A DNA stretch of 33,320 nucleotides from NCBI GenBank assembly GCA_013003535.1, contig JABDIY010000025.1, forward strand, positions 1 through 33,320. The letters are read 5' to 3'. The position numbers and the translations under genes were made by a program. This DNA is from Acidimicrobiales bacterium. GTDB lineage: Bacteria; Actinomycetota; Acidimicrobiia; Acidimicrobiales; SZUA-35. The notes below the pieces were generated by a model. That model saw only the letters and a program-made list of their open reading frames with translations. It ran no database searches and was not told the DNA's origin. Of this stretch, positions 10,679-33,018 are shown one piece after another (positions within the stretch are counted from its first letter, which is position 1; every line of letters starts with the position of its first letter).

Positions 10679-11980
10679 GTGGGTGTTCTGCAGAAGTCAA
10701 AACCGGCTCGATACTCCGCTGTCGGGCTGGTCCGCAGGGGCCTGAGAGGTGATACTTGGCCTCGCGTTTGGCGCGAGGTGCCGCTGAAGAAGTCCTATGA
10801 TGTGGTGATCATCGGGGGCGGTGTGCACGGGCTGGCCACTGCGTACTATCTCGCTACCAATCACGGCATCACCGACGTTGCCGTTCTGGACAAGGCGTAC
10901 TTGGGGAGTGGCGGTTCGGGTCGCAACACCGCCATCGTCCGGTCCAACTACCTCACCCCTGAGGGGGTGGCCTTCTACGATCGATCGCTCCAGCTCTACA
11001 AAACCATGGCCGCGGATCTGAACATGAACGTGATGTTTTCCGAACGAGGCCACATGACCTTGGCCCACACCGACGGCGCCCTTCGCACCATGCACTGGCG
11101 GGCCGAGGTCAACAAGCTTCAGAACATCAACTCCAGCGTGATCGACCCGGCCGAGGTCAAGAAGCTGGCCCCCAGCCTGGATACATCAAGCCATCCTCGC
11201 TATCCGATCCTGGGGGCGCTTTACCATCCGCCAGGCGGCACGATCCGCCACGATGCGGTGGTATGGGGCTACGCCCGCGGCGCCGATGCGCGGGGTGTGG
11301 AGATGCATCAGAAGACCGAGGTGCTGGACATCACGGTGGAGGGCGGATCTGGTCCAGACGGCAAGGGGCCGGGAGGAACGGTCACCGGTGTCCGCACGTC
11401 GAAGGGCGACATCTCGGCTCCGATCGTGGTCAACTGCACTGCTGGATGGGCCACCCTCATCTCAGATATGGCTGGCGTCAGGCTTCCAATCTCCACCCGA
11501 CCCCTGCAGGCGGCGGTCACGGAACCGGTAAAAGTGTTTCTCCCAACGGTTGTGGTCTCAGGCTCCCTTCACGTCTACGTGAGCCAGACCGACCGGGGCG
11601 AACTGGTCTTCGGTGCGTCGGTTGACCCGTTCAACAACTATTCGGTCCGGGGGTCGCTGGACTTCACCGAGGAGTTGGCCAGTCATGTACTGGAATTGAT
11701 GCCAGGTATTTCGCGAATGCGGCTACTCCGACAATGGGCCGGCCTGTGCGACATGACGCCCGACTACTCACCGGTCATGGGCTTCACGCCCGTTCAGGGC
11801 TTCCTTTGCGATGTTGGTTGGGGCACCTACGGATTCAAGGCTGGCCCCGTGAGCGGTGAACAAATGGCCTACTGCATCGCCACCAACGAAACCCCCGAGC
11901 TCATTTCCGCTTTCAACCTGTCCCGATTCGCCGCCGGCGAGCTCGTCGGCGAAAAAGGCGCAGCGGCCGTCGGCCACTGA
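10679..11980 (+). CDS. soxB: Sarcosine oxidase, beta subunit
   Basis: A 433-residue FAD-dependent oxidoreductase. The dinucleotide-binding motif IIGGGVHGLATAYYLA follows KKSYDVV, as in heterotetrameric sarcosine oxidase beta subunits. His191, in IRHDAVVWGYAR, corresponds to the histidine that covalently holds FMN in the Corynebacterium enzyme. The C-terminal part includes WGTYGFKAGPVSGEQMAY. The enzyme oxidises sarcosine, passing the one-carbon unit to tetrahydrofolate and making glycine and hydrogen peroxide. The GTG at 10679 is preferred over internal starts because residues 11-24 (RYSAVGLVRRGLRG) and the following W-P-R-V-W match the N-terminal stretch of known SoxB proteins, and a -10 box sits at the leaderless distance. 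It heads the soxBDAG operon. Confidence 0.93.
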   Translation: MGVLQKSKPARYSAVGLVRRGLRGDTWPRVWREVPLKKSYDVVIIGGGVHGLATAYYLATNHGITDVAVLDKAYLGSGGSGRNTAIVRSNYLTPEGVAFYDRSLQLYKTMAADLNMNVMFSERGHMTLAHTDGALRTMHWRAEVNKLQNINSSVIDPAEVKKLAPSLDTSSHPRYPILGALYHPPGGTIRHDAVVWGYARGADARGVEMHQKTEVLDITVEGGSGPDGKGPGGTVTGVRTSKGDISAPIVVNCTAGWATLISDMAGVRLPISTRPLQAAVTEPVKVFLPTVVVSGSLHVYVSQTDRGELVFGASVDPFNNYSVRGSLDFTEELASHVLELMPGISRMRLLRQWAGLCDMTPDYSPVMGFTPVQGFLCDVGWGTYGFKAGPVSGEQMAYCIATNETPELISAFNLSRFAAGELVGEKGAAAVGH

Positions 11981-11994
11981 GTTCAGGAGAAATC

Positions 11995-12267
11995 ATGCTC
12001 TTAGTACCTTGCCCCAACTGTGGGCCCCGGAACTCTGCCGACCTACGCTATTTCGGCGAATCCCACGAACGGCCCAACCCTGCCTCGGCCAGCCCGCACG
12101 AGTGGCGGTCCTACCTCTACCTAGAGGACAACCCTGCGGACTGGCTGAAGGAGAGCTGGTTTTGTCGGTCGGGCTGCCGTCGCTACTTCACGCTCGAACG
12201 GCATACGGGGACCAACGAGTTCCGTAGCCCGCCGATGCCGGGAAACAAAGTTGGGGGGAAGGCATGA
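11995..12267 (+). CDS. soxD: Sarcosine oxidase, delta subunit (zinc-binding)
   Basis: A 90-residue protein with the SoxD start CPNCG (Cys6, Cys9) and the later WFCRSGCRRYF (Cys57, Cys61). In the family the zinc site is usually Cys-Cys-His-Cys, with a WxHxxxC pattern in this second part; here the histidine position holds Cys57, giving four cysteines. GGAG lies shortly before the ATG, 14 bases after soxB, and the last bases overlap soxA by ATGA. It is a structural subunit of the heterotetramer, placed as in other soxBDAG operons. Confidence 0.92.
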   Translation: MLLVPCPNCGPRNSADLRYFGESHERPNPASASPHEWRSYLYLEDNPADWLKESWFCRSGCRRYFTLERHTGTNEFRSPPMPGNKVGGKA

Positions 12268-15110
12268 CCCGGCGGTTACCGGCCCAGGCCGGCGAGGTCA
12301 TCAACCGCTCAACGCCCTTGTCGTTCAAGTGGGACGGTGGGAACCTGTCTGCATTCGAGGGTGACACGATCGCATCAGCTTTGTTGGCCAACGACAAGCG
12401 GATTGTCTCCCGCAGCATGAAATACCACCGACCCCGCGGGTACCTGACCGCCGACTTCTGGGATCCCAACGGTTTCGTGCAGGTCGGTGACGATCCCAAT
12501 GTTCGGTCTGGTCACCGGTTGGTGGAGAATGGCATGACGATCGACCCGCAGAACGTTTGGCCTTCGCTCGACTATGACATGAAGGCAGCCAACGGTCTGG
12601 TTGGTCGTTTTCTCACCGCGGGGTTTTACTACAAGACGTTCATCAAACCCCAGGCAATGTGGCCGGTGTATGAGAAGGTGTTGGCCCGGTTTGCTCCCGG
12701 CGGAACGGTGGACCTTGACACCCCGCATGGATACCACGACAAGCGGTATGCCCACCCAGACGTCGTAGTGGCCGGGGGAGGACCAGCCGGCATGGCCGCG
12801 GCGATTTCGGCAGCATCCTTGGGGGCGCGAGTGATGCTGGTGGAACACGAACATGCATTGGGTGGGCACCTGCGATGGGGAAACGCCGAGGACCGGCGGT
12901 TGCTTGACGAACTCCGTGGCAAAGTGGAAGGCGCCGGGGTGGAAATTCTCACCAACTCCACAGTGACTGGACGTTACGAGGACAACTGGACGGCGATCGT
13001 TCAGCGGAGCCACCCCATAGCGGTGGAACGGCTCATCAAGGCTCGCGCCAAAGTGTTGGTGGTGGCGCCGGGACTGATCGAACGGCCCTACGTGTTTACC
13101 GGCAACGACAAACCCGGCGTGATGCTGTCCGGGGCGGTACGGCGCCTTATCAACATGTACGCCGTGAAGCCAGGGGAACGGGCCGTGGTCTTCACCGGCA
13201 ATGCCGACGGCGATGCGGCCATCGTCGATCTCGAACGAGTGGGTGTGACGGTCGCCCGAGTTGTCGATGCCCGTCAGGGCGAGAACATCGTGGTCGCCAA
13301 AGGCGGTGCAAAGGCACTCGATAGCGTTGAGCTGAGCGATGGTTCCGTCATCGAGGCCGACCTGTTGGTTACTGCAGTTGGCTGGACCGCACCCACATCA
13401 CTTCTGAACATGGCTGGGGATCGACCGGTCTACCACGCGGGTTCGGCCCGGTTCTACCCATCGGCGGAGATCCACAACGTTCTGGCAACCGGCGGCATCG
13501 CTGGTGACGGTGACGCCGATCAGCTGCTGGCCCACGCCGAGGCCACGGGACGGTTGGCCGCCAACCGCGCCGCCGCAGTAGCTCATCGAGTCCAGGATCT
13601 CACCGCTCGGGCGCTACCGGTCCAGGGTCCCGAGCCCACGTGGCCCGAAGACGATCGGCAGTCCCTGCCGCGTGACTCCCATCCTGCGCTTTTCCGTTCC
13701 ACCACCCATGGGATTGTGGACTACTCCGAGGACGTGGATTCCAAAGACCTGGTGGCCGCCGCCAAGGAGGGGTACGACTCCGTTGAGCTGTTGAAGAGAT
13801 ACACAACTGCCACCATGGGTCCTTCGCAGGGAAAGCTGGAAACGGTGAATACTGTTGCTGTTCTGGCCGAAGCGCGGGGCGAGACCATCCAGGAGGTCGG
13901 CACAACCGTATGGCGGCCGCCGTATGCGCCTATCACGCTCGGGGCCCTGGGCGGGCGGGTCTTCGAACCCGTCCGAGTGTCGTCAATCCAGTCATGGCAC
14001 GAGGCCAATGGAGCAACTCCGATTCTCGCCGGCGCCTGGGTTCGGCCCGATCACTACGGCGATCCGGCTGCCGAGGTCACGAACACCCGTACCAACGTTG
14101 GCATCATCGACGTGACTCCGCTGGGCAAGCTCGACCTTCAGGGTCCGGACGTTCCCAAACTGCTCAACCATCTCTACACCAACAAGTGGTCGCAGCTGCC
14201 CGTGGGATCGGTGCGCTACGGGATCATGTGCGCCGAGGACGGTGTGGTTCTCGATGACGGAGTGACGGGACGCCTATCCGACAACCGCTATCTCATGACC
14301 ACCACCAGCTCTGGAGCTGCCACCATCTGGGAGTGGGCCGAGAACTGGCTCCAGACCGAACACCCTGACTGGCAGGTGCACGTCACCCCGGTCACCTCCG
14401 GGTTCACCAGCATCAATGTGGCTGGTCCGAAGAGCCGGGCACTGGTGAGCCGCCTGGTCGACAACGTTGATCTCGGTCCCGACGCATTTGACTACATGCA
14501 GGTTCGGTCCGGAACCGTGGCCGGAGTTCCCAACTGCTTCATGTGGCGGATCGGCTTCACCGGGGAATTGTCCTTCGAGTTGCACGTTCCCTCCGGACAC
14601 GGGCTCCACGTCTGGACTGCACTACTGGAGATGGGGAACGATCTCGGCGTGAAGCCGTTCGGTTTGGAAGCCCAACGGATTATGCGTTTGGAAAAAGGCC
14701 ACTTCATCGTTGGTCAAGACACTGACGGGCTCACCAAAGCCCCCAGCCTCGGGATGAACGGGCTGATCAAACTGGACAAAGACGATTTCGCCGGCAAGCC
14801 GGAATTGGCGTGGGCGATGGAGCAATCACTCCCGTCGCTTGTGGCGATTCAGACAACCGATCCCGCAGAGGTGCCGACCGAGGCATCCCAGATCGTGCGG
14901 GCGGGAACCAACGAAATACTGGGGCGGATCACATCCTCACGCATGTCGCCCACCCTGGATCGATCCATCTGCCTCGGACAGGTGCTGCCCGAGGCCGCGC
15001 CAGCAGGAACCGAGCTGACGATCGTAATGATCGATGGTCGCAGGATCACCGCCCGGGTGATGGAACACCAGGCCCATTTCGATCCCGAAGGACAAAGACT
15101 CCGTGGTTGA
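12264..15110 (+). CDS. soxA: Sarcosine oxidase, alpha subunit
   Basis: A 948-residue subunit of normal length. The N-terminal domain (about residues 10-100) has the ferredoxin-like fold region seen in SoxA (FEGDTIASALLAN, SRSMKYHRPRG). A dinucleotide-binding domain with VVVAGGGPAGMAAAISAASL begins near residue 167. The C-terminal part (about 560-940) is a GcvT-like tetrahydrofolate-binding aminomethyltransferase domain (GIIDVTPLGKLDLQGPDV, LRLEKGHFIVGQDTDG as MRLEKGHF). It binds NAD and tetrahydrofolate in the complex. The symbol is that of sarcosine oxidase, not of the sulfur-oxidising SoxA. The ATG overlaps soxD, and the end overlaps soxG by eight bases, which favours coupled translation. 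Confidence 0.95.
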   Translation: MTRRLPAQAGEVINRSTPLSFKWDGGNLSAFEGDTIASALLANDKRIVSRSMKYHRPRGYLTADFWDPNGFVQVGDDPNVRSGHRLVENGMTIDPQNVWPSLDYDMKAANGLVGRFLTAGFYYKTFIKPQAMWPVYEKVLARFAPGGTVDLDTPHGYHDKRYAHPDVVVAGGGPAGMAAAISAASLGARVMLVEHEHALGGHLRWGNAEDRRLLDELRGKVEGAGVEILTNSTVTGRYEDNWTAIVQRSHPIAVERLIKARAKVLVVAPGLIERPYVFTGNDKPGVMLSGAVRRLINMYAVKPGERAVVFTGNADGDAAIVDLERVGVTVARVVDARQGENIVVAKGGAKALDSVELSDGSVIEADLLVTAVGWTAPTSLLNMAGDRPVYHAGSARFYPSAEIHNVLATGGIAGDGDADQLLAHAEATGRLAANRAAAVAHRVQDLTARALPVQGPEPTWPEDDRQSLPRDSHPALFRSTTHGIVDYSEDVDSKDLVAAAKEGYDSVELLKRYTTATMGPSQGKLETVNTVAVLAEARGETIQEVGTTVWRPPYAPITLGALGGRVFEPVRVSSIQSWHEANGATPILAGAWVRPDHYGDPAAEVTNTRTNVGIIDVTPLGKLDLQGPDVPKLLNHLYTNKWSQLPVGSVRYGIMCAEDGVVLDDGVTGRLSDNRYLMTTTSSGAATIWEWAENWLQTEHPDWQVHVTPVTSGFTSINVAGPKSRALVSRLVDNVDLGPDAFDYMQVRSGTVAGVPNCFMWRIGFTGELSFELHVPSGHGLHVWTALLEMGNDLGVKPFGLEAQRIMRLEKGHFIVGQDTDGLTKAPSLGMNGLIKLDKDDFAGKPELAWAMEQSLPSLVAIQTTDPAEVPTEASQIVRAGTNEILGRITSSRMSPTLDRSICLGQVLPEAAPAGTELTIVMIDGRRITARVMEHQAHFDPEGQRLRG

Positions 15111-15681
15111 TGTACTGAGGTTCGAGAGCCCCGTTACCACCATCTACCCCACGGGAGAGACGGAGGATTTGACGCTGGGCGATCTGTCCGAAATCACCAA
15201 ACAGATCGTGCGGGCCGATTCTAAAACGGCTGCTGCTGAACAGTTGGCCGTCACCTTCGGGTCCAGCCGTATCGATGGTGACGTGATCGTGCTCGGTCAA
15301 CGACCCGACGAATTCCTGCTCGTCGGCACACCGACCGCAACGGCCTCGCTGGTAGAAGGTTTGGACCGGTCCGGTCATGTGAGCGTGATCGACCACACCC
15401 ACAGTCGAGCGATGTTTCGCCTCACCGGTAGCAATGCTTCTGCGACGCTGGAGAAACTCTGCAGCGTGGACTGGAGCGAGCCAATGACGCCAAATGGCGC
15501 GGTAGTGTCGGCCAGTTTGGCCAAGGTCGGTTGCGACATCGCCAGGCTCGACCGCGGGCCTGACCGTTCCTATCTCATCGCCTGTGACCGGTCGTTCGCC
15601 CAATACCTCTTCGACGCCATCATCGACGCTGGTAATGAGTTCGACATCGCGGTTGTCGCTCTTGCCCCGACGCTGGTTTAG
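15103..15681 (+). CDS. soxG: Sarcosine oxidase, gamma subunit
   Basis: A 192-residue protein in the usual final position of the operon, starting with a GTG that overlaps the end of soxA by eight bases. HVSVIDHTHSRAMFRLTGSNA and the later CDRSFAQYLFDAIIDAG agree with SoxG, a GcvT-related subunit that completes the heterotetramer. The family is divergent, so the assignment leans on position as well as these segments. Its TAG stop is immediately followed by the CTA of the convergent gene's stop, with no intergenic base. Confidence 0.87.
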   Translation: MVDVLRFESPVTTIYPTGETEDLTLGDLSEITKQIVRADSKTAAAEQLAVTFGSSRIDGDVIVLGQRPDEFLLVGTPTATASLVEGLDRSGHVSVIDHTHSRAMFRLTGSNASATLEKLCSVDWSEPMTPNGAVVSASLAKVGCDIARLDRGPDRSYLIACDRSFAQYLFDAIIDAGNEFDIAVVALAPTLV

Positions 15682-16494
15682 CTAGAGGTACACGCCGGCG
15701 ATTTCCGGGAGATCGTGAACGATGTCGAAATGGTTCCGGCCGGTAATCTCTCGCAGTTCCACGGCGGCACCGCGCTCCTCGAGAGCGGCGGCGAACACGC
15801 GGCTCTGCTGTTTGAAAGCTTCGGTTTCGATCTCGCCCCAGACGATGGTGAATGCTGGGTCTCGCTTCACGGGTGGGAGAGCGAGAAGTGGGCTGGCGCT
15901 CCGGGCCGTCTCGACGTCCATACCCAGCTCATCGTTGATGTAGGTGCCAACCAATGGCTGCAGGTCATACACCCCAGACAGGAGGACGGCGCGGTGCACC
16001 GATTCACGCAATGCCACCCATGCAGCCAAATGGGCACCGGCCGAGGAGCCCGAGACCGTTAGTCGGGAGGCGTCGCCGTTACAGACGTTGACGAGAACCC
16101 ACCGCGCCGCGGTGCGAGCCTGATCGATGATCTGAGGGACGGTGGCATGGGGCGCCAGGGTGTAGCCGGCGGCCACGTAGGTGACGCCCGTGGAAGAAAA
16201 GCTGATCGCCGGGAACGACGCCTCGGCCTTGGAGAGTTCCTGCCAGTAGCCGCCGTGGAAGAACAGGTGGACCGGGCCCGAGTTGAGGGGATTGGCGGGT
16301 TCGAAGATGTCGAGAGCCTCGGCGTCGCTGGAGCCGTATCGTTCTGTTCGGTAGGGGATCAAGTCCCGTGCTCCTGCGCTTTCTGCGACGTACCTGGCGA
16401 TGAACGGTGCTATGTCATAGATACAGCTGCTGGGCGAATAGGCCCGCTCTCGCTCAGCCCGCCCGGCGGGAAAGATGATCTCAGAAGCGGGCAC
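15682..16494 (-). CDS. Kynurenine formamidase, alpha/beta-hydrolase (AFMID-like) type
   Basis: A 270-residue alpha/beta hydrolase. The oxyanion motif HGGYW (80-84) and the nucleophile motif GSSAG with Ser151 match arylformamidases of the AFMID/esterase group, and the C-terminal NHFDIV supplies the catalytic histidine. It would hydrolyse N-formylkynurenine, the product of the adjacent tryptophan dioxygenase, to kynurenine and formate. The GTG at 16494 is chosen, giving a 14-base overlap with the dioxygenase gene; a longer reading from 16554 would run deep into that gene. It is the last gene of the operon. It is unrelated in fold to the cyclase-type KynB of pseudomonads. Assignment rests on motifs plus context. 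Confidence 0.85.
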   Translation of the reverse strand: MPASEIIFPAGRAERERAYSPSSCIYDIAPFIARYVAESAGARDLIPYRTERYGSSDAEALDIFEPANPLNSGPVHLFFHGGYWQELSKAEASFPAISFSSTGVTYVAAGYTLAPHATVPQIIDQARTAARWVLVNVCNGDASRLTVSGSSAGAHLAAWVALRESVHRAVLLSGVYDLQPLVGTYINDELGMDVETARSASPLLALPPVKRDPAFTIVWGEIETEAFKQQSRVFAAALEERGAAVELREITGRNHFDIVHDLPEIAGVYL

Positions 16495-17290
16495 GAATAT
16501 CCCAAAGATCGGGGAAGGCCGGCTTGAAAAGCGTGGTCTGGAGGTAGGCCGCACCCAAGGAGCCGCCGGTCCCCATCTTGGTCCCGATCGTGCGCTGCAC
16601 CATCTTCACGTGCCGGTATCGCCATTCCTGCAACCCTTCGTCCAGATCGGTGAGGCTTTCGCAGAACTCGGCTAGCGCCGGATCATTCAAATAGATATTG
16701 ATCAGTGTTTCCTGCACTTCCTCTGAGGCTGTCACCGGTTGCGAAACATCACGCTCGAGAACGTACGAAGGGATTGGGTGACCCGAGCGATCGAGGTAGG
16801 CCAGGAACCGATCCCACGCTGACGGCGCCTCGAGGCGCCGGAGCAAGCGGGCATGCTCGGTCGGATTGTGCGCGAACCGTTCCACATGAGCAGGATCTTT
16901 CATACCCAGGAGAAACTCCAACTCCCGGAACTGAACACTCTGAAAGCCGCTGGCGTTGGCCAGGAAGTGCCGGAACGAATCAAACTCCAAGGGCGTCATG
17001 GTTTCCAGAACATCCAATTGCGCAACCAAGATCTTCAGGATTTTCAGAACACGCTTCAGCTGATGTCCTCCCCGGTGGGGCGCATCGTTGTCGAGGTGGT
17101 CCACCATGTGATCCAGTTCGTGCAAGACCTGCTTGAACCAGAGTTCGTACACCTGGTGGATGATGATGAACAACGTCTCGTCATGTTCAGGCGGATCGGA
17201 GGCAACCTGTTGGAGCGACAGCAACTCCGGGATCTTCAAGTAGGACCCGTAGGTGACTTCCGGGCTCATCTCGTTTTCATAGCTGGTCAC
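16481..17290 (-). CDS. kynA: Tryptophan 2,3-dioxygenase
   Basis: A 269-residue haem protein that opens the indole ring of L-tryptophan to N-formylkynurenine. Clear family blocks are YGSYLKIPELLSLQ (14-27), FIIIHQVYELWFKQ with His45 (the substrate-contacting histidine), SGFQSVQFRELEFLLG, and RYRHVKMVQRTIG with His227 as the axial haem ligand, followed by GTGGSLGAAYLQ. The length is close to that of bacterial enzymes. Its GTG start overlaps the stop of the monooxygenase gene as GTGA. It catalyses the first step of the pathway although it is sixth in transcription order. Confidence 0.96.
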   Translation of the reverse strand: MTSYENEMSPEVTYGSYLKIPELLSLQQVASDPPEHDETLFIIIHQVYELWFKQVLHELDHMVDHLDNDAPHRGGHQLKRVLKILKILVAQLDVLETMTPLEFDSFRHFLANASGFQSVQFRELEFLLGMKDPAHVERFAHNPTEHARLLRRLEAPSAWDRFLAYLDRSGHPIPSYVLERDVSQPVTASEEVQETLINIYLNDPALAEFCESLTDLDEGLQEWRYRHVKMVQRTIGTKMGTGGSLGAAYLQTTLFKPAFPDLWDIRARF

Positions 17291-18699
17291 GAGACATCTC
17301 CTGCTGTTGGAGCGGCGGGGAACTCGGCCGCCGGTAGCGGAGCCAGTTGCGACACAAGGGACGCGGCACGCTCAAAATCCACTTCGTCCACGCTGCTGAT
17401 GCCATCGGTGAGGGTGTTGAGAATCTGCGCTTGAGCGGCGGCACGGGCCGCTACCTCGGCATACGGGATGGTGGAGAACATCACCATTCCGTAGCGGGCG
17501 GCATATCGGTTCGGATGGCGTTGCTGCAACTCCAGTGCCAGCTCCCGCTTGAGAAGATAGGACGGGTCCACAACACCGGCCCGCATCTCCACGTAGTTGT
17601 CCAGGGCCATGTCTGCGATCGCGTCCGCATCAGGCTTGCGTTGAGCTGAGAACGCCGCCAGGGCCCCGGCCAGATCCTGGGATTCCTTGTCGAGGTGGCG
17701 GACAAGTTCGGCTGCAGATTCCATAGCAGCGTTCATGCCCTGTCCGTGGAAGGGCACGATCGCATGGGCCGCATCGCCCAGGATCACCGATCGATCAGCG
17801 TGGCTCCATGGGCGACACCGGATAGTTGAGAGCGTGCCGGTTGGATTGGTGATGAACTGTTCAACAAGGTTCGGGACCAAGGCCGCAAAGGTCGGGAACT
17901 CGCGGTTGAAGAACGTCTCGATCGACACCGGCGAATCGAGTTCGGCGAAGCTTCCGCCCGCGGCAGCAATGCCTGGCTCGTTGGGGAGGAAAAGCGTGGC
18001 GGTGAAGTCCTTTTGGGGGTTGGCCAGTGCGATCAACATGAAGTCGCCCCGGGGCCATATGTGGAGTGCGTTGGGGTCGAGCCGGAACTCCCCGTCGTCG
18101 CCCGCCGCGATAGTGAGCTCCTTGTAGCCGTGGTCCAGAGGTTGTTCGCTAACCACACCGTCGTTTGCGGCGATGGTTGCCGCCCGCACCAACGAGTTGG
18201 CTCCGTCGGCTCCCATCACCAGCCCGAATTGTCGGTCGATCGTCTCCTCACCAACGGTGAACCGGAGCGAGCCACCGTCGAGGTCAACTTCTCGCAGGCG
18301 GTGTTCGAAGTGAAACCTCACCCTCCCGGTGTTTTCGGCGGCGTCGAGCAGAATGGCGTTGAGATCCCGGCGGTTGACCGAGTGGATGACCTCGTGATCC
18401 TGCAGCCCGTACCGCTGCAACGACGGCTTCCCGTCGCTGTGCACCATGCGGCCGATCATGCGGATCGTGATCCCAGCGACCTCATTCTCGATTCCGGCCT
18501 CGCGAAGGGCCACGATGCCTCTGGTGGCAAGGGCGAGGTTGATGGACCGCCCGCCGTCGAAGCTGTGCGTTCGTAGGTCTGGTCGGCTCTCGTACACCTC
18601 TACCTGATGCCCTCGTTTGGCAAGGTACAACGCCAGCAGCGAACCGGCCGGTCCCGCCCCCACCACAACCAGCGGTCCGACGGTGCGGAGGGTGCTCAC
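17287..18699 (-). CDS. kmo: Kynurenine 3-monooxygenase
   Basis: A 470-residue FAD-dependent aromatic hydroxylase that converts kynurenine to 3-hydroxykynurenine with NADPH and oxygen. The N-terminal FAD motif VVVGAGPAGSLLALYLAKRG (12-31), the DRSVILGDAAHAIVPFHGQG block that contacts FAD, and the HSFDGGRSINLALATRG stretch are characteristic of KMO. The GTG start overlaps the kynureninase stop as GTGA, and its own stop overlaps the dioxygenase start in the same way. The C-terminus may carry the membrane-associating helix known in KMOs, but a long hydrophobic segment is not obvious. Confidence 0.95.
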   Translation of the reverse strand: MSTLRTVGPLVVVGAGPAGSLLALYLAKRGHQVEVYESRPDLRTHSFDGGRSINLALATRGIVALREAGIENEVAGITIRMIGRMVHSDGKPSLQRYGLQDHEVIHSVNRRDLNAILLDAAENTGRVRFHFEHRLREVDLDGGSLRFTVGEETIDRQFGLVMGADGANSLVRAATIAANDGVVSEQPLDHGYKELTIAAGDDGEFRLDPNALHIWPRGDFMLIALANPQKDFTATLFLPNEPGIAAAGGSFAELDSPVSIETFFNREFPTFAALVPNLVEQFITNPTGTLSTIRCRPWSHADRSVILGDAAHAIVPFHGQGMNAAMESAAELVRHLDKESQDLAGALAAFSAQRKPDADAIADMALDNYVEMRAGVVDPSYLLKRELALELQQRHPNRYAARYGMVMFSTIPYAEVAARAAAQAQILNTLTDGISSVDEVDFERAASLVSQLAPLPAAEFPAAPTAGDVS

Positions 18700-19988
18700 G
18701 GGAGCAGATCCTTCAGGATTGCCACGAACCGGTGGATATCGACAAATGTGTTGTAAAGGGGGACCGGTGCCACTCGAATCACGTTGGGATAGCGCCAGTC
18801 ACATCGAACCCCGGCCGTCTCGAGGGCTTCATAGACAGCTCGGCCGTCCACCCCTGGCATGGTGATGCTGAGCGCAAACTGGGCACCCCGATCGGCCAAT
18901 TCAGTGGGCGTAAGGTTGAGGATCTTGGTGTCAAGCTCTTCATTCAGGAGGTAGTCGAGGTAACGAATTTGCCGCTCCGATTTGTGTCGTAAGACGGTGA
19001 TCCCGCCGGCCTCGTCGATCAACTCGAGACTGCCTCGGAGAGCGGCCATGGACAAGATCGGGGCATTGGACAGCTGCCAGGATTCCACGGTGGGGATCGG
19101 TTCATAGACCGTCTCCATTTGAAACCGCGTGTCCTTTCTGGTGCCCCACCAGCCCAGAAACTTCGGCAGATCCGGGGTCCGGAGATGGCGTTCGTGCACG
19201 AATGCGCCGCCAACCCCGCCCGGTCCGCTGTTGAGGTATTTGTAAGTGCACCAGGCGGCGAAGTCGGCCCCCCAATTGTGAAGATCCAAGGGCACATTGC
19301 CAACCGCATGAGCGAGGTCGAAACCGACCTTCGCGCCAACCGCATGCCCGGCTGCCACGATCCCGGCCATGGGGAGAACCTGACCGGTGTAGTACTGAAC
19401 GCCGGGTAGCATCACAAGCGCCAATTCGTCGCCGCATTCGGCGATTGCGTTGAACAGGTCATCCGGATCGATGGTGGCTGCACCTTGGCGGGGACCCACC
19501 GTGACGAGACATTTTGCGGGGTCACCACCGTGAAATCGAATCTGAGACTCGACAGCGAAGTGATCCGAGGGAAATGCGTGTTCTTCGATCAGGATTTTGC
19601 GACGTGTTCCCTCCGGTCGGTAGAAGCTGACCATGAGGAGGTGTAAGTTCACCGTGAGCGAATTCATCGCAACCACCTCCTCGGGTCGGGCCCCCACGAT
19701 TCGGGCCAACGGTTCTGTGAGCAGCTCGTGGTAGGGCTCCCAGGCCAGTTCGCCGGTGAAGTGTCCCTCCACTCCCAGGGAACCCCAGCGCTCCATTTCA
19801 GTTGTCACATAGTTCCGGGCTCTGTGCGGCATCGCCCCCAGCGAGTTGCCGACGAGATAAATCGTTTCGTTGCCGTCAGCGTCGGTCGGGATAGCGAACT
19901 CGGCCCGGTAGCGGGCCAAGGTATCGGCTGCGTCAAGCTGCTCGGCGCACGCCAGTGAGGCATCGAATACCACGGATTCTCCGCTCAC
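18696..19988 (-). CDS. kynU: Kynureninase
   Basis: A 430-residue pyridoxal-phosphate enzyme that cleaves 3-hydroxykynurenine (or kynurenine) to 3-hydroxyanthranilate (or anthranilate) and alanine. YLVGNSLGAMP near the N-terminus, VGFDLAHAVGNVPLDLH with its cofactor-binding Asp, and CTYKYLNSGPGGVGG with Lys250 as the PLP lysine are diagnostic. RVAPVPLYNTF near the C-terminus also fits. The GTG start overlaps the decarboxylase stop as GTGA. The presence of the monooxygenase and the 3-hydroxyanthranilate dioxygenase suggests that 3-hydroxykynurenine is the main substrate. Confidence 0.95.
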   Translation of the reverse strand: MSGESVVFDASLACAEQLDAADTLARYRAEFAIPTDADGNETIYLVGNSLGAMPHRARNYVTTEMERWGSLGVEGHFTGELAWEPYHELLTEPLARIVGARPEEVVAMNSLTVNLHLLMVSFYRPEGTRRKILIEEHAFPSDHFAVESQIRFHGGDPAKCLVTVGPRQGAATIDPDDLFNAIAECGDELALVMLPGVQYYTGQVLPMAGIVAAGHAVGAKVGFDLAHAVGNVPLDLHNWGADFAAWCTYKYLNSGPGGVGGAFVHERHLRTPDLPKFLGWWGTRKDTRFQMETVYEPIPTVESWQLSNAPILSMAALRGSLELIDEAGGITVLRHKSERQIRYLDYLLNEELDTKILNLTPTELADRGAQFALSITMPGVDGRAVYEALETAGVRCDWRYPNVIRVAPVPLYNTFVDIHRFVAILKDLLP

Positions 19989-21019
19989 TGGAGGCCACCG
20001 GCGTTCAGAGAGAAGAAGGCGTCGGCGTTGGTAAATCGCAATGCATCCCGGGTGGGTTCGTCCAGGAAGGCTGCCCTATCGATCACTGCACCAGGATCCT
20101 CTTCCCCGAGGGGAAAGGGATAGTCCGACCCCATCATGATCCGTTCGGTTCCCATCACAGCCGCCAGGTGAGCTAGCGCCGGTTCGTCGAAGACGGCGGA
20201 GTCAACACAGAAACGGTCGGTGTAGGACGACGGGGGATTGGGGCAGTCCGTGCGGATGATGTCTCGGCGACGCCAGGCGTTGTCGACCCGGGCGATCTGG
20301 GCGGCGAAGTTTCCGCCGCCATGGGCAAAGCAAATCTTCAAACTTCGGGGCAGACGCTCGAAGGCGCCAGAGAGAATGAGCGAAAGGATGGCAAGGTGCG
20401 TTTCAGCCGGCATCCCCACCAACCACTTCAACATGTATTTGGTCATTCGGTCCGGGGCCATGGTGTTCCACGGATGGACGAAAACGGCGATGTCCTCGGT
20501 GGCGCAGTGGTGAAGAAACCGCACCAGTTCGAGGTCATCGAGATTGCGGCCATCAATATGGTTCCCGATGTGCACGCCAACGTGACCGTTGTCCTTGGCC
20601 CGGCTCACCTCGCGGCAGGCGGCGTCGATGTCTTGGAGCGGCGCATGACTTAGCGGACGAAGCCGAACCGGATCGATCTCACACATCTCCGATGCCATGT
20701 CGTTGATTTTGGCGGCCCAGCGTTCGCCGATACTGGGAGCGCACGCATAGGAGAACAGGATCGGGGTTGCCGAGATCACTTGGATCGTGGTTCCCGTTCG
20801 GTCCATTTCCGCCAGGCGGGCGGCGGGATCCCAGAGCGGAGCCTCCACCGGTCGGTACTCGTGGTCCCCGCTCATCATGAAGCCGGTGCCGTCGCCGTTG
20901 TCCCGCAGCCACGGCGCATCGGGACTGCACAGAATGGCCGCATCCTCCTTGCTCAGCGCAGGGAAGAAGTGGGAGTGAACGTCGATCCGCCGAGCCCGGA
21001 CGGTCACTGCTTCGGTCAC
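19985..21019 (-). CDS. nbaD: 2-Amino-3-carboxymuconate-6-semialdehyde decarboxylase (ACMSD)
   Basis: A 344-residue amidohydrolase-fold decarboxylase. The zinc-binding HxH is seen in RIDVHSHFFP (His15, His17), further metal or active-site residues in FAHGGGNFAAQ, and the conserved aspartate in MGSDYPFPLGEE. It decarboxylates the ring-opened product of 3-hydroxyanthranilate to 2-aminomuconate semialdehyde, steering carbon away from quinolinate and NAD synthesis. The frame is open to 21058, but GTG 21019 is chosen because it forms the same GTGA overlap with the preceding gene as the other junctions and starts close to the family's N-terminus. Confidence 0.93.
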   Translation of the reverse strand: MTEAVTVRARRIDVHSHFFPALSKEDAAILCSPDAPWLRDNGDGTGFMMSGDHEYRPVEAPLWDPAARLAEMDRTGTTIQVISATPILFSYACAPSIGERWAAKINDMASEMCEIDPVRLRPLSHAPLQDIDAACREVSRAKDNGHVGVHIGNHIDGRNLDDLELVRFLHHCATEDIAVFVHPWNTMAPDRMTKYMLKWLVGMPAETHLAILSLILSGAFERLPRSLKICFAHGGGNFAAQIARVDNAWRRRDIIRTDCPNPPSSYTDRFCVDSAVFDEPALAHLAAVMGTERIMMGSDYPFPLGEEDPGAVIDRAAFLDEPTRDALRFTNADAFFSLNAGGLQ

Positions 21020-21543
21020 TTCTCCGGCCGAGGGTGGACGGTTCCGCAAAACGAACACGTACGGGCCGCCTCGTCTTCATAGAAGGCCTTGAACACCGGG
21101 GGGAGGTCGTCCACGATCGATTCCAGCTGCACCTCGGCCCGATGAATGAGCTGGTGGCAGTTGGGGCAGAACCATTCGAAACCGTCGACCTCGCCCTTGG
21201 GACGGGCGTATTCGATCACCATCCCGATGCTGTCTGGGTCCGGTCGTTGCGGCGAGTGGCGAACGTGGGGTGGCAGCAAGAAGACGTCACCTTCGGTGAT
21301 TGGCACGTCCCGTTCAGCGGCGCCCGGCCGGTCCCGGATCTTCAGGATCATGGTGCCCTTCAGTTGGTGGAAGAATTCGGGAAGTGGGTCGTCGTGGTAG
21401 TCGGTGCGTTCGTTGCCACCGCCGACGATCGTGACGATCATGTCGGAGTCCTCCCAGATCTGCTTGTTTGACACCGGTGGTTGGAGCGAGTCGGCGTTGT
21501 CCTCGATCCACTGCATCAGGTTGAACGGCATTTGCAGGGTCAT
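21016..21543 (-). CDS. nbaC: 3-Hydroxyanthranilate 3,4-dioxygenase
   Basis: A 175-residue cupin that opens the ring of 3-hydroxyanthranilate. Catalytic iron ligands are visible as His50, Glu56 and His96 (RTDYHDDPLPEFFHQLKG and PPHVRHSPQRP), with substrate-binding Arg46, Arg100 and Glu111. A second, rubredoxin-like iron site is present as C126-P-N-C129 and C163-S-F-C166, the bacterial two-iron form. The ATG lies one base after the RidA stop; AAGGAG, inside the end of ridA, is its ribosome binding site. The stop overlaps the ACMSD start as GTGA. Confidence 0.95.
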   Translation of the reverse strand: MTLQMPFNLMQWIEDNADSLQPPVSNKQIWEDSDMIVTIVGGGNERTDYHDDPLPEFFHQLKGTMILKIRDRPGAAERDVPITEGDVFLLPPHVRHSPQRPDPDSIGMVIEYARPKGEVDGFEWFCPNCHQLIHRAEVQLESIVDDLPPVFKAFYEDEAARTCSFCGTVHPRPEK

Positions 21544-21544
21544 G

Positions 21545-21943
21545 TCAGCTCCTTAGGGCAGCGATTGCCTTGATCTCGATGAGTAGGTAGGGGTGGGGGA
21601 GTTGGTGCACGGCCACCGTTGTACGAGCCGGTGCTTCGATGGCCGCGAAGAACTCCGCCCAGGCGAGGTTGTACGGACCGAAGTCGTTCATGTTGACCAG
21701 GAATGAGGTGACGTCGATCAGGTCGCTTCGGTCGAGCCCGATCGTGCTGAGGATCTGCTCGATGTTCTCCAGCACTGCTCTGGTTTGGACGGCGATGTCC
21801 AGTGCCGTCGTTCCCGTTTTGTCCACCTCGGCTCCGGCGAAGGTGTTGTCTGGCCGCCGCGAACTGGTGCCGGACACGAAGGCCAGGTTCCCCGCCACGC
21901 GTAGATGGGGGAAAGCGCCTCGGGGTGTTACAAGGTCAGCCAT
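21545..21943 (-). CDS. RidA family deaminase, probable 2-aminomuconate deaminase
   Basis: A 132-residue YjgF/YER057c/UK114 (RidA) protein with the catalytic arginine Arg107 in [12 protein letters not shown] and the family stretch [26 protein letters not shown]. RidA proteins hydrolyse enamines/imines. In 2-nitrobenzoate and tryptophan meta-cleavage gene sets (NbaF/AmnD) a member of this family deaminates 2-aminomuconate. As the first gene of this operon it probably does the same or clears a reactive enamine intermediate. A general housekeeping RidA is the alternative. AACAAT lies at -12 to -7 before the ATG, so the operon mRNA may be leaderless. Confidence 0.82.
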
Positions 21944-28996: not shown

Positions 28997-29008
28997 TAAG
29001 CGAGAAAA

Positions 29009-29026
29009 GTTCCCCGGTCGGGGAAC
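29009..29026 (+). terminator. Hairpin after the propeller lipoprotein gene
   Basis: GTTCCCC-GGTC-GGGGAAC is a perfect seven-pair stem with a tetraloop, 12 bases after the stop codon. AAAA precedes it but only CTT follows, so it is a probable rather than a classic terminator. Confidence 0.55.
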
Positions 29027-29078
29027 GGTCTTCCCGATTCAAAGCTCGGTGAAAATTCCTGATCCCAACCACATGGCC

Positions 29079-29084
29079 TAGCCT
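29079..29084 (+). promoter_or_regulatory. -10 box (TAGCCT) of the alpha/beta hydrolase gene
   Basis: TAGCCT lies at -12 to -7 of the GTG at 29091, consistent with a leaderless mRNA. Confidence 0.45.
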
Positions 29085-29090
29085 CGACTC

Positions 29091-30059
29091 GTGACTATCA
29101 AGAGGTGGAAGGTTGGTCTTGGGGTGGTCGCCGCGGTTTCCGTGGCGGCAGTGATTGCAGGCCGCGTTCTGACGAGTCGGTGGGCCCGAAACCCGGATCC
29201 CCTGGAAGGTCAGGCCGTCGCATTTCCTCCGGCCGACGAGAGGCGTGTGGAACTGCCGGATGGGGCCACGATCGCAACCTTCACGCTGGGGGAGGGGCCC
29301 ACGATTGTCTGCGTGCACGGCCTTACCGGCTCGCACAATGACTGGGGACCCATGATCCCTGGGCTCGTTGCTGCGGGCTACCGGATCGTAGCCATAGATC
29401 AACGGGGTCACGGTGATTCCACGAGCGGAACGGCGGGCTACGGCTCCGCCCAGTTGGGCAGGGACCTACACGATGTCGTGGAGGAACTGGACATAGTTGC
29501 AATAGCCATGATGGGCCACTCCATGGGTGGGATGGCGGCCATGGCGTACGCCGTGGATCACGTTGTTGATTTCAACAAGCGTGTAGGTTCTCTCATCCTG
29601 CTGGGAACAGCTGCATCGCTGAAGATGCGCGGTTCAGCGGCGGCCTTTCGGGCAAGTCGGACGCAGATCCCCGGCTGGCTCAAGCCGTCGAATCGACGGC
29701 TCCGTATCGGGGCAGGGCTGAGCGTCTTCGGCGCATCTCCAAGTCTCCACATGATCGATCAAGCCATTGTCTCCGCCAGCCGACTGCCGGAGAGCGTGCG
29801 AGCTGCGGCCACATTCGCACTTGGGGATCACCATGTTCTCGACCGTCTCGAACAGGTTCGATGCCCGGCACTGGTAGTAGGCGGGATGCGAGATCGGTTG
29901 ATTCGTCCGTGGCAAGTTCGACAACTGGCCGAAGCAATTCCAAATGCTGAACTTCGCATGCTGCCCAAGGCAGGACACATGTTGATCTGGGAACGCCACG
30001 CCGAACTCGTTGCCGAAGTGACTGCGTTCCTGTTAGGCAAATTCCCTGACCAGAACTAG
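29091..30059 (+). CDS. Alpha/beta hydrolase with N-terminal membrane anchor
   Basis: A 322-residue protein. An N-terminal hydrophobic stretch (about residues 8-24, VGLGVVAAVSVAAVIAG) without a clear cleavage site suggests a membrane anchor. The hydrolase fold then shows VCVHGLTGSHNDW (oxyanion region), DQRGHGDS, the nucleophile elbow GHSMGG, a late aspartate in GMRDRLIRP and the catalytic histidine in KAGHMLIWERH. The lid region between strands 6 and 7 is long. Esterase or epoxide/lactone hydrolase activity is possible; the substrate is unknown. It starts with GTG at the leaderless distance from a -10 box and stands alone. Confidence 0.85.
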   Translation: MTIKRWKVGLGVVAAVSVAAVIAGRVLTSRWARNPDPLEGQAVAFPPADERRVELPDGATIATFTLGEGPTIVCVHGLTGSHNDWGPMIPGLVAAGYRIVAIDQRGHGDSTSGTAGYGSAQLGRDLHDVVEELDIVAIAMMGHSMGGMAAMAYAVDHVVDFNKRVGSLILLGTAASLKMRGSAAAFRASRTQIPGWLKPSNRRLRIGAGLSVFGASPSLHMIDQAIVSASRLPESVRAAATFALGDHHVLDRLEQVRCPALVVGGMRDRLIRPWQVRQLAEAIPNAELRMLPKAGHMLIWERHAELVAEVTAFLLGKFPDQN

Positions 30060-30123
30060 TCGGCCGAGCCCAGATTCGCCTGCGATCCATTCCTCGCCGG
30101 CGCGGTGGACGTCGGGTGAAACT

Positions 30124-30861
30124 ATGGTTCGGATCGTGGTCGCACCCGAAGATCTTTATGAGTTTCCGTACCCCTCGGCAGATCTCGAGTCCAAGTATCC
30201 GTTCGAGGAGATGGTGTTCACCCGGCTGGATCAACGGACCATGGTCGAACGGGCCGAAGAGTTCTACGCCCTGATGGATGGACGGCGAAGCCCTCGCATG
30301 TTTTCTCCCGACCCGGTCCCGAAGCGGCTGATCGAACTTGCCGTGGCGACAGCGTCAACCGCGCCGTCGGGAGCACACAAGCAACCCTGGCGATTCGTTG
30401 CCACCCAAAACCCGGAAGTGAAGCGGGCCATTCGGGCTGCTGCGGAGGAAGAAGAGCGAGTGAACTACCTGGAGAACCGGATGAACGAGGAGTGGCAGGA
30501 GGCGTTGGCTCCCCTCGGCACCGACCACCACAAAGAGTTCCTGGAAGTTGCGCCCTGGATCGTTGTTTTGTTCGAGGAGCGGTACGAGCTACGGCCTGAC
30601 GGTCAACGACGCAAGAACTATTACGTGAAGGAGAGTGTCGGCATCGCGGCCGGCATGTTCATCGCGGCGCTTCACAATTTGGGGTTGGCGACCTTGACTC
30701 ACACGCCAACCCCCATGAATTTTCTCACCCGACTCTTGGGCCGGCCCGAGAACGAGCGCCCATTTGTACTCTTTCCGATCGGGTTTCCGCTGCCCGGTGT
30801 GAAAGTTCCAGCTCTCAAGCGCAAACCCTTGGATGACGTGATGGTGATCGTTGGCGCGTAA
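30124..30861 (+). CDS. Nitroreductase-superfamily flavoprotein, iodotyrosine deiodinase-like
   Basis: A 245-residue FMN protein of the nitroreductase fold. FYALMDGRRSPRMFS, STAPSGAHKQPWRFV and the C-terminal LKRKPLDDVMV closely follow human iodotyrosine deiodinase (IYD) as I remember it. The residues that clamp the substrate zwitterion in IYD, Glu157, Tyr161 and Lys182, have counterparts here in Glu111, Tyr115 (EEEERVNY) and Lys137 (HHKEFL). IYD homologues reductively remove halogens from halotyrosines; bacterial members exist. The real substrate here is not known, and a general nitro or quinone reductase remains possible. It follows the hydrolase by 64 bases on the same strand. Confidence 0.8.
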   Translation: MVRIVVAPEDLYEFPYPSADLESKYPFEEMVFTRLDQRTMVERAEEFYALMDGRRSPRMFSPDPVPKRLIELAVATASTAPSGAHKQPWRFVATQNPEVKRAIRAAAEEEERVNYLENRMNEEWQEALAPLGTDHHKEFLEVAPWIVVLFEERYELRPDGQRRKNYYVKESVGIAAGMFIAALHNLGLATLTHTPTPMNFLTRLLGRPENERPFVLFPIGFPLPGVKVPALKRKPLDDVMVIVGA

Positions 30862-30933
30862 CAACGCCAGGCGAGGGTCTGACCTCCTGTGGACGAACGG
30901 TGACGGGCTGTTATGTGGCTGACGGTCTCCGTA

Positions 30934-30968
30934 GAGAACTGGTGCACCCCTTGGATGCACCAGCTCTC
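30934..30968. terminator. Bidirectional hairpin between convergent genes
   Basis: GAGA (30934-30937) and CTGGTGCA (30939-30946) pair with TGCACCAG (30956-30963) and TCTC (30965-30968): twelve pairs with one A/C mismatch and a nine-base loop. It sits between the flavoprotein gene and the convergent secreted-protein gene. T-runs are absent. Confidence 0.55.
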
Positions 30969-31017
30969 AGATTGCCTTCGTTGGCTCTAGGTTTAGTGGA
31001 CCTGCCGTGTGTCGTCT

Positions 31018-33018
31018 CTATTTAGACGGAGCCGCAGGCGCCCAGGACGCAACGGCTCCGGCGGGTGGCTGGTAGACGGTGAAAGGGCTTGGGTCGGAAC
31101 CCTGGGTGACCGTCTCGCCGACATCGGGATCGTGGACCTCATCGACGACCAGTGGTCGCGTCTTCAGGTTATAGGTGTGCGAGCCGACGGTGCCGCTGTG
31201 CCGGCCGAGCTCGAACCCGAAGCCGAACTCGAGGAAGTCGAGTGACCACGGACCTAACGTCCACTCGTCCTCGATGATGCCCACGTCGATGCCAACCCGC
31301 CCCTGTATCTTGGGTCGTAGGTTGATGTCGAAGCCGTACCTCGGGTCGCTGACCGTGAAGCCGTAGTCACCACCGGGGCTTGACCGCTCGGCGGTGAACG
31401 CAACCGGTTCCCGCCTGTCGAACCACACCATGCCTTCGCTTACACCGCCAGTGAGCTTTGTCGAATCATTGGCGTCGACACGCATGCCGATCTTCCCGTT
31501 CGTGATGTCGGCGTCCACACCGATGTCGAGGGCCGCGTAGGCGACGCCGACGTCGAGGATGAGGTTTGTCTCCTCGCCTCCCTTCAACCACCAACCATCG
31601 ATGCTGCTTCGCTCGTTCCCGATCACCGGGTCGATGTGCTCGCTGAACGACTTGTCGAAGCCGGGGCAGTTCCTCGTTTTCGGATCCGGTCCCGGAATCG
31701 AGATTTTCAGAGAGCAATTGGCCCGCGCTTCCAGGACAAACTCTTTACCGTCGAAGGTCTTGTCGCCGGGAAGGCCTGTTGCTTGATACGCCGGGCTCCC
31801 GTTGGCGGAAACGTTGACGGGTGCGACCGCCAGCTCCAGTTGCATCGGGCCCGATCCGCCGCCCGAACGATGGGTCACGTCGATCGAGAAGGGTGCCCGA
31901 ACTCCGAACCCGAAGGCGAACGAGTAGTCGAATTTGATGTAGTAGCGACCGTGCCACCACGTCTTCTTCGCAATCGTGTACTCCCATGTATCCTCGTGGG
32001 CCTTGCCGTAACTGAACCCGGTCAGGAAATATTTGGTGTTGAACTTCGGAGCACCGCCCCAGTAATCGATATTCGATCCAGGCGGCAGGAATTCTGGGCC
32101 CAGCACCAGGGGCGCCACCGTTTCTGTTGCGTCATAAGCACCAGCAGTGATACCGGCGGTGTGTGCAACGAGCGGCGCGGCAGTCACACTATTCGGCCCG
32201 GTGATTCCGTTCGGACCAGTGATCGGTAGGACTGTCACACGACGGATCGACCGCTCGCCACTGTTGACCAACAGGTTGAGAAGTTCAGCGTCGTCCATGG
32301 CCAATGCGTGACGAACCCGTACGTTGCCCGAAACCCGCCTGCCGGGACCCTTCTGGGCGAGCTGCTTTCGGATCTTGTCCAGGTTCTTGGCCAGGCCAGG
32401 ACTGGGCTCCTCGTCGCTGTTGATCGTGACGCAGAAGTCATGAAGGGCCCGGTCCCGTTGCGGGCCGCACGGGTTCTGCAGTGGTTTCACAGTGACCTCC
32501 CGGTCGATCACGATTCGGTCCTCGAGCTCGATAATGGTCTCTTCGTACTTTGGTGCCGCGCCGATCAAGCGCTGGAACTGCGGTTCGAAGAGCTGATCGA
32601 CCTCCGGTGCGTGGCGCAAAGACGTCGCTTCTACAAAAGCGGCAAGGTCGAGCTTGCCGCCGGGAGCAACGCGGACTGTGTCGAGTCCTGCGTTCTCGAG
32701 CTCGCCGGCTCCGACCGCCTGAACGAATTGTGGTGATGCCAAAGCTTCGTTCACCACTTCCTCGGCTGGCCGCGTGTCGGGTTGTGGCGGCGGCTGCTCG
32801 GGATCAGCGGGTTGAGAGGGAGCAGTCGGGTCCAGTGTCGATCCGGACGAGTCCGATATTGGAATGCCGGGGACGTTCACCCCGACCGCCACTTCAGCCG
32901 CGCCCGCCGACTGAGAGCCGGTTATGAGGCTGAGGGCAACAGTGATAGCGGCGACCAATCTCATGGACCGGCCCCCTGTGGAACGATGCTTCTTGTGGAA
33001 GCTGCCTTGGTTGTTCAT
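31018..33018 (-). CDS. Large secreted protein of unknown function
   Basis: A 666-residue protein I do not recognise. The N-terminus carries a basic region and a hydrophobic core MRLVAAITVALSLITG with a probable cleavage after AGAA (near residue 41). A Pro/Gln-rich linker follows (about 58-83), then a mixed region with a CGPQRDRALHDFC cysteine pair, a short repeat ITGPNGITGPN, and a long aromatic, beta-rich part (about 320-620) with another cysteine pair. ATG 33018 has AAAGGAG at good spacing; a second ATG at 32964 has AGGGGG upstream and would give a normal-length signal peptide. It is probably an extracellular or surface beta-sheet protein. The gene follows a WD40-type gene on the same strand. 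Confidence 0.7.
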   Translation of the reverse strand: MNNQGSFHKKHRSTGGRSMRLVAAITVALSLITGSQSAGAAEVAVGVNVPGIPISDSSGSTLDPTAPSQPADPEQPPPQPDTRPAEEVVNEALASPQFVQAVGAGELENAGLDTVRVAPGGKLDLAAFVEATSLRHAPEVDQLFEPQFQRLIGAAPKYEETIIELEDRIVIDREVTVKPLQNPCGPQRDRALHDFCVTINSDEEPSPGLAKNLDKIRKQLAQKGPGRRVSGNVRVRHALAMDDAELLNLLVNSGERSIRRVTVLPITGPNGITGPNSVTAAPLVAHTAGITAGAYDATETVAPLVLGPEFLPPGSNIDYWGGAPKFNTKYFLTGFSYGKAHEDTWEYTIAKKTWWHGRYYIKFDYSFAFGFGVRAPFSIDVTHRSGGGSGPMQLELAVAPVNVSANGSPAYQATGLPGDKTFDGKEFVLEARANCSLKISIPGPDPKTRNCPGFDKSFSEHIDPVIGNERSSIDGWWLKGGEETNLILDVGVAYAALDIGVDADITNGKIGMRVDANDSTKLTGGVSEGMVWFDRREPVAFTAERSSPGGDYGFTVSDPRYGFDINLRPKIQGRVGIDVGIIEDEWTLGPWSLDFLEFGFGFELGRHSGTVGSHTYNLKTRPLVVDEVHDPDVGETVTQGSDPSPFTVYQPPAGAVASWAPAAPSK

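Follow-up and report, generated by a model that had tools for sequence, protein, structure and literature searches.

The window analysed here is a 33,320-nt stretch of DNA from an Acidimicrobiales bacterium (contig JABDIY010000025.1). It carries an intact open reading frame of 245 codons with an ATG start, encoding an FMN-type flavoprotein of the nitroreductase superfamily (Table 1). A gene convergent with it encodes a protein of 666 aa for which neither Pfam nor NCBIfam gave a match at the thresholds applied. About 8 kb upstream lies a tryptophan-to-kynurenine catabolic cluster, with genes for tryptophan 2,3-dioxygenase, an FAD monooxygenase, kynureninase, an amidohydrolase, 3-hydroxyanthranilate 3,4-dioxygenase, a RidA-like protein and a lipase-like hydrolase, some of which were assigned by Pfam alone or below NCBIfam cut-offs. 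Adjoining this cluster are genes for sarcosine oxidase-like beta, alpha and gamma subunits, both large subunits scoring below the NCBIfam subfamily cut-offs. Near the start of the window, a DMSO-reductase-type molybdopterin oxidoreductase of 955 aa, which reaches the cut-off of none of the NCBIfam models that it matched, is followed downstream by a sulphur-transport-like protein. Rfam models gave nothing above their gathering scores over the window, and a sigma-70 scan of positions 28990-31100 found no promoter-like site, a result that says little for Actinobacteria.

Table 1. Features of the window, with positions counted from its first nucleotide
Feature	Position	Strand	Basis
IYD-clade FMN flavoprotein, 245 aa (putative FMN binding)	30124..30861	+	PDB matches, tree, structure model
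R54, R55 and R58 (human R100, R101 and R104), probable FMN-binding arginines	30283..30297	+	Alignment, 167/167 bacterial rows
TAPSGAH, residues 79-85, with G83 and A84 (human G129 and A130)	30358..30378	+	Alignment
Predicted active-site lid region: helices 97-116 and 122-131	30412..30516	+	AlphaFold2 model
E111 codon (human E157), predicted substrate clamp	30454..30456	+	Alignment
Y115 codon (human Y161), predicted substrate clamp	30466..30468	+	Alignment
K137 codon (human K182), predicted substrate clamp	30532..30534	+	Alignment
T194 codon (human T239)	30703..30705	+	Alignment, invariant in 167/167 rows
Alpha/beta hydrolase	29091..30059	+	64 nt upstream of the window IYD gene
Protein of 666 aa, convergent with the IYD gene	31018..33018	-	
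Tryptophan-to-kynurenine catabolic cluster	15682..21943	-	
Sarcosine oxidase-like beta, alpha and gamma subunits	10679..15681	+	
DMSO-reductase-type molybdopterin oxidoreductase, 955 aa	187..3054	+	

The flavoprotein matches PF00881, the nitroreductase-type fold, at 80 bits. When all PDB chains were searched with phmmer, its best match was the iodotyrosine deiodinase (IYD) of Haliscomenobacter hydrossis (HhIYD; 5ko7) at an E-value of 6e-74. Human and mouse IYD ranked next (8e-54 to 3e-52), followed by the divergent IYD 6pz0 (1e-17) and by the remaining nitroreductases from 3e-15. Judged by these matches, the resemblance to IYD is far beyond chance, which bears out the likeness proposed in a first-pass annotation of this DNA. 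The best-scoring NCBIfam model was that of BluB (TIGR02476), whose cut-off of 150 bits the protein misses with 53.1; two IYD proteins were scanned in this way, and neither matched an IYD model. A phylogeny of IYD, BluB and nitroreductases, set beforehand as the refuting test, placed the window protein inside the IYD clade. In this tree of 137 proteins, all 119 IYD-like rows lay on one side of a branch of length 3.43 with support of 96/97, and 16 nitroreductase paralogues and two BluB rows lay on the far side; the bootstrap was not fully settled, and mouse IYD and several outgroup rows formed long branches. The IYD side comprised the window protein, HhIYD, mouse IYD and 116 further bacterial sequences (109 loci and seven plasmid-borne homologues). 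Before tree building we dropped 49 of the 158 loci, either because they nearly duplicated a row already chosen or because their ORFs fell outside 200-300 aa. Three rows with ORFs above 340 aa, one from a plasmid (L203) and two of BluB (L205 and L207), were also excluded, as was one of 17 paralogues, which was too short. By sequence and tree, then, the gene product is a true member of the IYD clade, a bacterial representative of a known family.

To compare active-site residues, we aligned 167 bacterial rows with human and mouse IYD; the bacterial rows were the 158 loci left once 16 duplicates had been dropped, plus seven plasmid rows, the window protein and HhIYD. Human residues are numbered on what we take to be the correct register, in which fixing Y161 gives E157, K182, T239 and R101. 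The title of PDB entry 5yak gives the same number for T239, and the R101W variant named in one abstract (PMC13171439) fits that of R101. The equivalents of human R100, R101, R104, E154, E157, Y161, W169, T178, K182 and T239 were identical in all 167 bacterial rows. These include the three residues that the first-pass annotation had singled out as a substrate clamp, E111, Y115 and K137, whose numbering proved exact and which align with human E157, Y161 and K182. The Glu/Tyr/Lys clamp was complete in none of the 18 outgroup rows, one of which carried the Lys alone. Threonine at the T239 position, presumably the residue that contacts flavin N5, also occurs in several outgroup rows and is therefore not diagnostic by itself. 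For 80 of the loci, the peptide patterns used in fetching them include no triad residue; the others were collected because their sequences as a whole resemble the window protein. In this alignment, the E/Y/K triad sets the IYD clade apart from BluB and other nitroreductases.

An AlphaFold2 model of the window protein, built on a 40-sequence alignment, reached a pLDDT of 90 and a pTM of 0.87. The top Foldseek match was 5ko8, HhIYD with iodotyrosine (TM-score of 0.95 by target length, 1.2 Å), and the next was 4ttc, human IYD with iodotyrosine (MIT; 1.3 Å). VIA-align 2 Z-scores were 27.6 for 5ko8 and 27.5 for 4ttc, compared to 18.6 for the first non-IYD structure and 18.1 for BluB. The model, with its two predicted lid helices, is closest to the substrate-bound forms of IYD.

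The closest homologues come from metagenome-assembled genomes (MAGs) labelled Actinomycetes or Acidimicrobiales, one of them (L003) at 84%; on these labels we take the window's class to be Acidimicrobiia. Comparison of the window gene with five close homologues gave a pN of 0.116-0.163 against a pS of 0.68-0.80, with synonymous sites almost saturated. Judged against these five sequences, purifying selection acts on the gene. The window genome (4.0 Mb, 221 contigs, 95.8% completeness) has the window gene as its single IYD; its other match, at 34% to residues 46-106, is a different nitroreductase. Two sequences elsewhere in the collection are irregular. One locus titled Acidobacteria (L009) has an IYD that branches among Acidimicrobiales and matches the IYD of a genome assigned to the window's class, with identity over the last 150 residues and a contig of equal length, a conflict of label or binning. 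Another genome (G200) has a second IYD-like copy running over two open frames (C1:7916-8604) and a full copy on contig C5.

Matches to IYD with E-values below 1e-90 were present in 15 of 61 genomes, the window's own genome counted. With E-values up to 1e-30, IYD was found in 45/197 genomes of the window's class and in 48/197 Acidobacteriota genomes; both sets are samples from larger groups, the second being the phylum of an Acidobacteria MAG. Ten records of a plasmid collection matched, one at 28% and nine at 48-56%, the latter from Streptomyces, Nonomuraea, Deinococcus, Persicobacter, Aureibacter and Paraburkholderia. The Nonomuraea record is 11.9 Mb long and looks chromosomal. A phage collection contained no IYD match, and none was confirmed on viral contigs. 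Among eight plasmid records examined, the five with a gene table all annotate the bacterial IYD as 'nitroreductase family protein'. Given this spread and these annotations, the window gene belongs to a family that is broad and under-annotated; as such it is an ordinary find, not unusual in its class. The frequencies in the two 197-genome sets suggest that dehalogenation of halotyrosine may be a common natural step that has been missed.

We called neighbouring genes in three rounds, covering 85, 119 and finally 159 loci without duplicates, with ORFs beginning at the first possible start codon and inter-gene overlaps and gaps therefore approximate. Synteny around IYD was lineage-specific, with no general partner gene; the annotated linked neighbours included DNA ligase, mannose-1-phosphate guanylyltransferase-like proteins, methyltransferases, aldehyde dehydrogenases and a protease. 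Aldehyde dehydrogenases lay near IYD in six loci (family name taken from L096 and L119), which we judged to be the coincidence of a common family. A conserved operon in the window was considered and rejected: no window gene within eight genes of IYD clustered with any such neighbour in the other 84 loci. With 159 loci, one window gene, of the alpha/beta hydrolase family by its cluster representative, fell into a loose group of four loci within five genes of IYD. One of the four lies on the IYD strand, and we take the group to reflect a common superfamily. The hydrolase immediately upstream of the window IYD gene was likewise rejected as a dehalogenase, scoring 37.9 bits with the haloalkane dehalogenase model against a cut-off of 241. 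It is probably functionally unrelated to IYD.

Four loci, chosen after the fact from the 159, place genes of aromatic amino acid metabolism beside IYD. In a locus of the window's class (L066), HPPD is encoded about 264 nt upstream of IYD on the same strand. In an Acidobacteriota locus (L157), homogentisate 1,2-dioxygenase (HmgA; 705 bits, cut-off 511) lies tail to tail with IYD, and HPPD follows 3.7 kb further on. Between HPPD and HmgA in that locus, a minus-strand gene (14372-14806) encodes a homologue of AAC(3)-I family aminoglycoside acetyltransferases, with 216 bits against an NCBIfam cut-off of 200. In two further Acidobacteriota loci (L059 and L179), a PLP decarboxylase gene directly precedes IYD, with overlapping called ORFs. 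These two decarboxylases are 57% identical; that of L059 has DOPA, tryptophan and tyrosine decarboxylases as its best PDB matches, and 2,4-diaminobutyrate decarboxylase, below cut-off, as its best NCBIfam match. Because the HmgA and decarboxylase queries were chosen as IYD neighbours, their own hits prove nothing. Beyond the query loci, the searches found the HPPD of L157 and decarboxylase-like genes in L179 and L184, of which that in L179 is an immediate neighbour. Judged by their neighbour genes, these 4/159 loci speak for an aromatic amino acid as substrate; the window's own locus adds nothing to this.

Co-occurrence of IYD with HPPD was examined in the two sets of 197 genomes. HPPD scored above cut-off in 40 genomes of the window's class and 74 Acidobacteriota genomes, together with IYD in 22 and 32 (raw odds ratios of 7.1 and 5.1, respectively). 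The control, kynureninase, was above cut-off in 53 and 41 genomes, together with IYD in 28 and 22 (raw odds ratios of 8.4 and 5.8). Since the control was equally associated, the raw association of IYD with HPPD is not specific to tyrosine. In a joint logistic model of HPPD and kynureninase, each kept its effect (5.4 and 6.8; 3.8 and 4.1). Stratification by family, with seven families of the window's class entered, five of them informative for HPPD and six for kynureninase, gave Mantel-Haenszel odds ratios of 8.8 for HPPD (p = 7e-4, genome size uncontrolled) and 2.1 for kynureninase (p = 0.16); the Acidobacteriota association is a raw one, without family labels. An exact within-genus test of IYD and HPPD gave p = 0.083 (12 genera, three informative). 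With this value, and with kynureninase equal in the raw odds ratios, we rejected the association as proof of a role. The association of IYD with HPPD within families is a lead. The window genome itself has no HPPD above cut-off, with one partial match of 41 bits, and HmgA had no match in this genome, in five close relatives or in an HPPD-carrying genome (G227). Any tyrosine made in this organism would therefore not be broken down through HPPD and HmgA, unless their genes sit in the few per cent of the genome that the assembly lacks.

Collectively, the PDB matches, the conserved residues and the model suggest, with a probability that we put at roughly 0.8, that the window protein is a bacterial IYD performing FMN-dependent halotyrosine dehalogenation, with an uncertain role in clearing or salvaging halotyrosines. 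In the IYDs that have been studied, the amino acid is gripped by residues of the lid, the phenol sits on the FMN, and the halogen is removed by FMN in its reduced state. As the residues important in those enzymes are conserved, similar chemistry is the best guess for the window protein. The IYD lid and the contact between FMN and phenol are described in PMC5499721, and mammalian IYD debrominates bromotyrosine too (PMC4708624). Reductive dehalogenation of free 3-halotyrosines is most likely the reaction of the window protein, by analogy with these relatives. FMN would be bound in the nitroreductase fold, and E111, Y115 and K137 would close over the zwitterionic end of the free 3-halotyrosine, as lid closure in studied relatives suggests. 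The phenol would stack on the flavin, T194 would support stepwise electron transfer from reduced FMN, and halide and L-tyrosine would be released. Bromo-, chloro- or iodotyrosine from halogenated protein may in this way reach the tyrosine pool, by clearing or by salvage. Tyrosine catabolism may follow in some lineages; in the window organism it apparently would not run via homogentisate. A broader role, with bacterial IYD as the entry to halotyrosine use and halogenated protein tyrosine passing through tyrosine to HPPD, to homogentisate or to decarboxylation by aromatic amino acid decarboxylases, is a tentative proposal that we would sooner bet against than for. It draws on the adjacent or overlapping genes of L157, L059, L179 and L066 and on the co-variation of IYD with HPPD inside families of the window's class. 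None of the open-access titles listed, which for the larger searches were a part of the hits, dealt with what IYD does in bacteria or with an IYD gene adjoining homogentisate genes; since most IYD papers lie outside that literature, this is weak evidence of absence.

Chance likeness to IYD in an ordinary nitroreductase, flavin reductase or BluB-like enzyme is scarcely credible. The superfamily fold PF00881 is common to all of these and there is a weak BluB score of 53 bits, but that score is far under 150, the tree places the protein elsewhere and the triad is incomplete in 18/18 outgroup rows. A more serious contender, though still an unlikely one, is that the clade keeps the zwitterion clamp for another main substrate, an amino-acid phenol such as nitrotyrosine or a modified tyrosine, or for a non-halogenated redox reaction, with halotyrosine turnover as a side activity. 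No halogenase scored above cut-off among the annotated neighbour proteins, which are part of all neighbours; in the 4/159 loci described above, IYD has enzymes of aromatic amino acid metabolism beside it and not halogen genes, and plasmids of soil bacteria carry the gene too. Against another substrate stand the invariant active-site residues, including the T239 equivalent, and the closeness of the model to the iodotyrosine-bound form.

The idea that IYD recovers iodide or bromide to supply halogenation reactions within the cell, as happens in the thyroid, appears quite improbable. Besides the vertebrate analogy, it could draw on 12 loci, mostly titled Acidobacteria, Holophagales or Thermoanaerobaculia, with a flavoprotein gene three to five genes upstream of IYD. 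The representative of this flavoprotein (L070:5564-7150, Acidobacteriota) was rejected as a halogenase: its PF04820 (tryptophan halogenase) score of 51 bits is above the Pfam gathering score, but by NCBIfam it is a generic flavin monooxygenase below every cut-off, with 68 and 58 bits against monooxygenase and halogenase cut-offs of 240 and 900. In one of these loci (L076), a DNA polymerase III delta-type gene sits between the flavoprotein and IYD. The matches of the window's upstream hydrolase include PDB entries named bromoperoxidase or haloperoxidase, the best at 9e-17; these entries are presumably esterase-like enzymes. Its matches to an abhydrolase (5e-20) and to an esterase (3e-17) are stronger, and the hydrolase is not kept beside IYD. 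We retain halotyrosine dehalogenation as the preferred reading. The breadth of the IYD family and the specific loci that tie IYD to aromatic amino acid metabolism are the points worth passing on, and the neighbour genes listed above mark loci where the role of bacterial IYD can be tested.

Among known systems, BluB (TIGR02476) has the nitroreductase superfamily fold in common with the window protein, but the two BluB rows aligned carry Arg, Ala and Glu at the triad columns. The 192-residue chain of 6pz0, presumably from Thermotoga, has the same fold, is named IYD and was solved with tyrosine, but is only 28% identical to the window protein. Mammalian IYD (DEHAL1; 4ttc and 3gfd) is 42% identical, has the triad and the threonine in common with the window protein, and lies within 1.3 Å of the model. 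It has TTTP where the window protein has THTP, and it carries a membrane anchor; in contrast, the window protein has no hydrophobic N-terminal stretch by eye. The nearest known system is HhIYD (5ko7, 5ko8 and 5krd), at 52% identity over 218 aligned residues. HhIYD is a bacterial enzyme crystallised with iodotyrosine. The window protein differs from it by a one-residue insertion in the lid and by about 20 extra residues ahead of the aligned part, and has Ala at position 230, where 136/167 rows have Asp. The triad, the THTP motif and the fold are alike in the two proteins.
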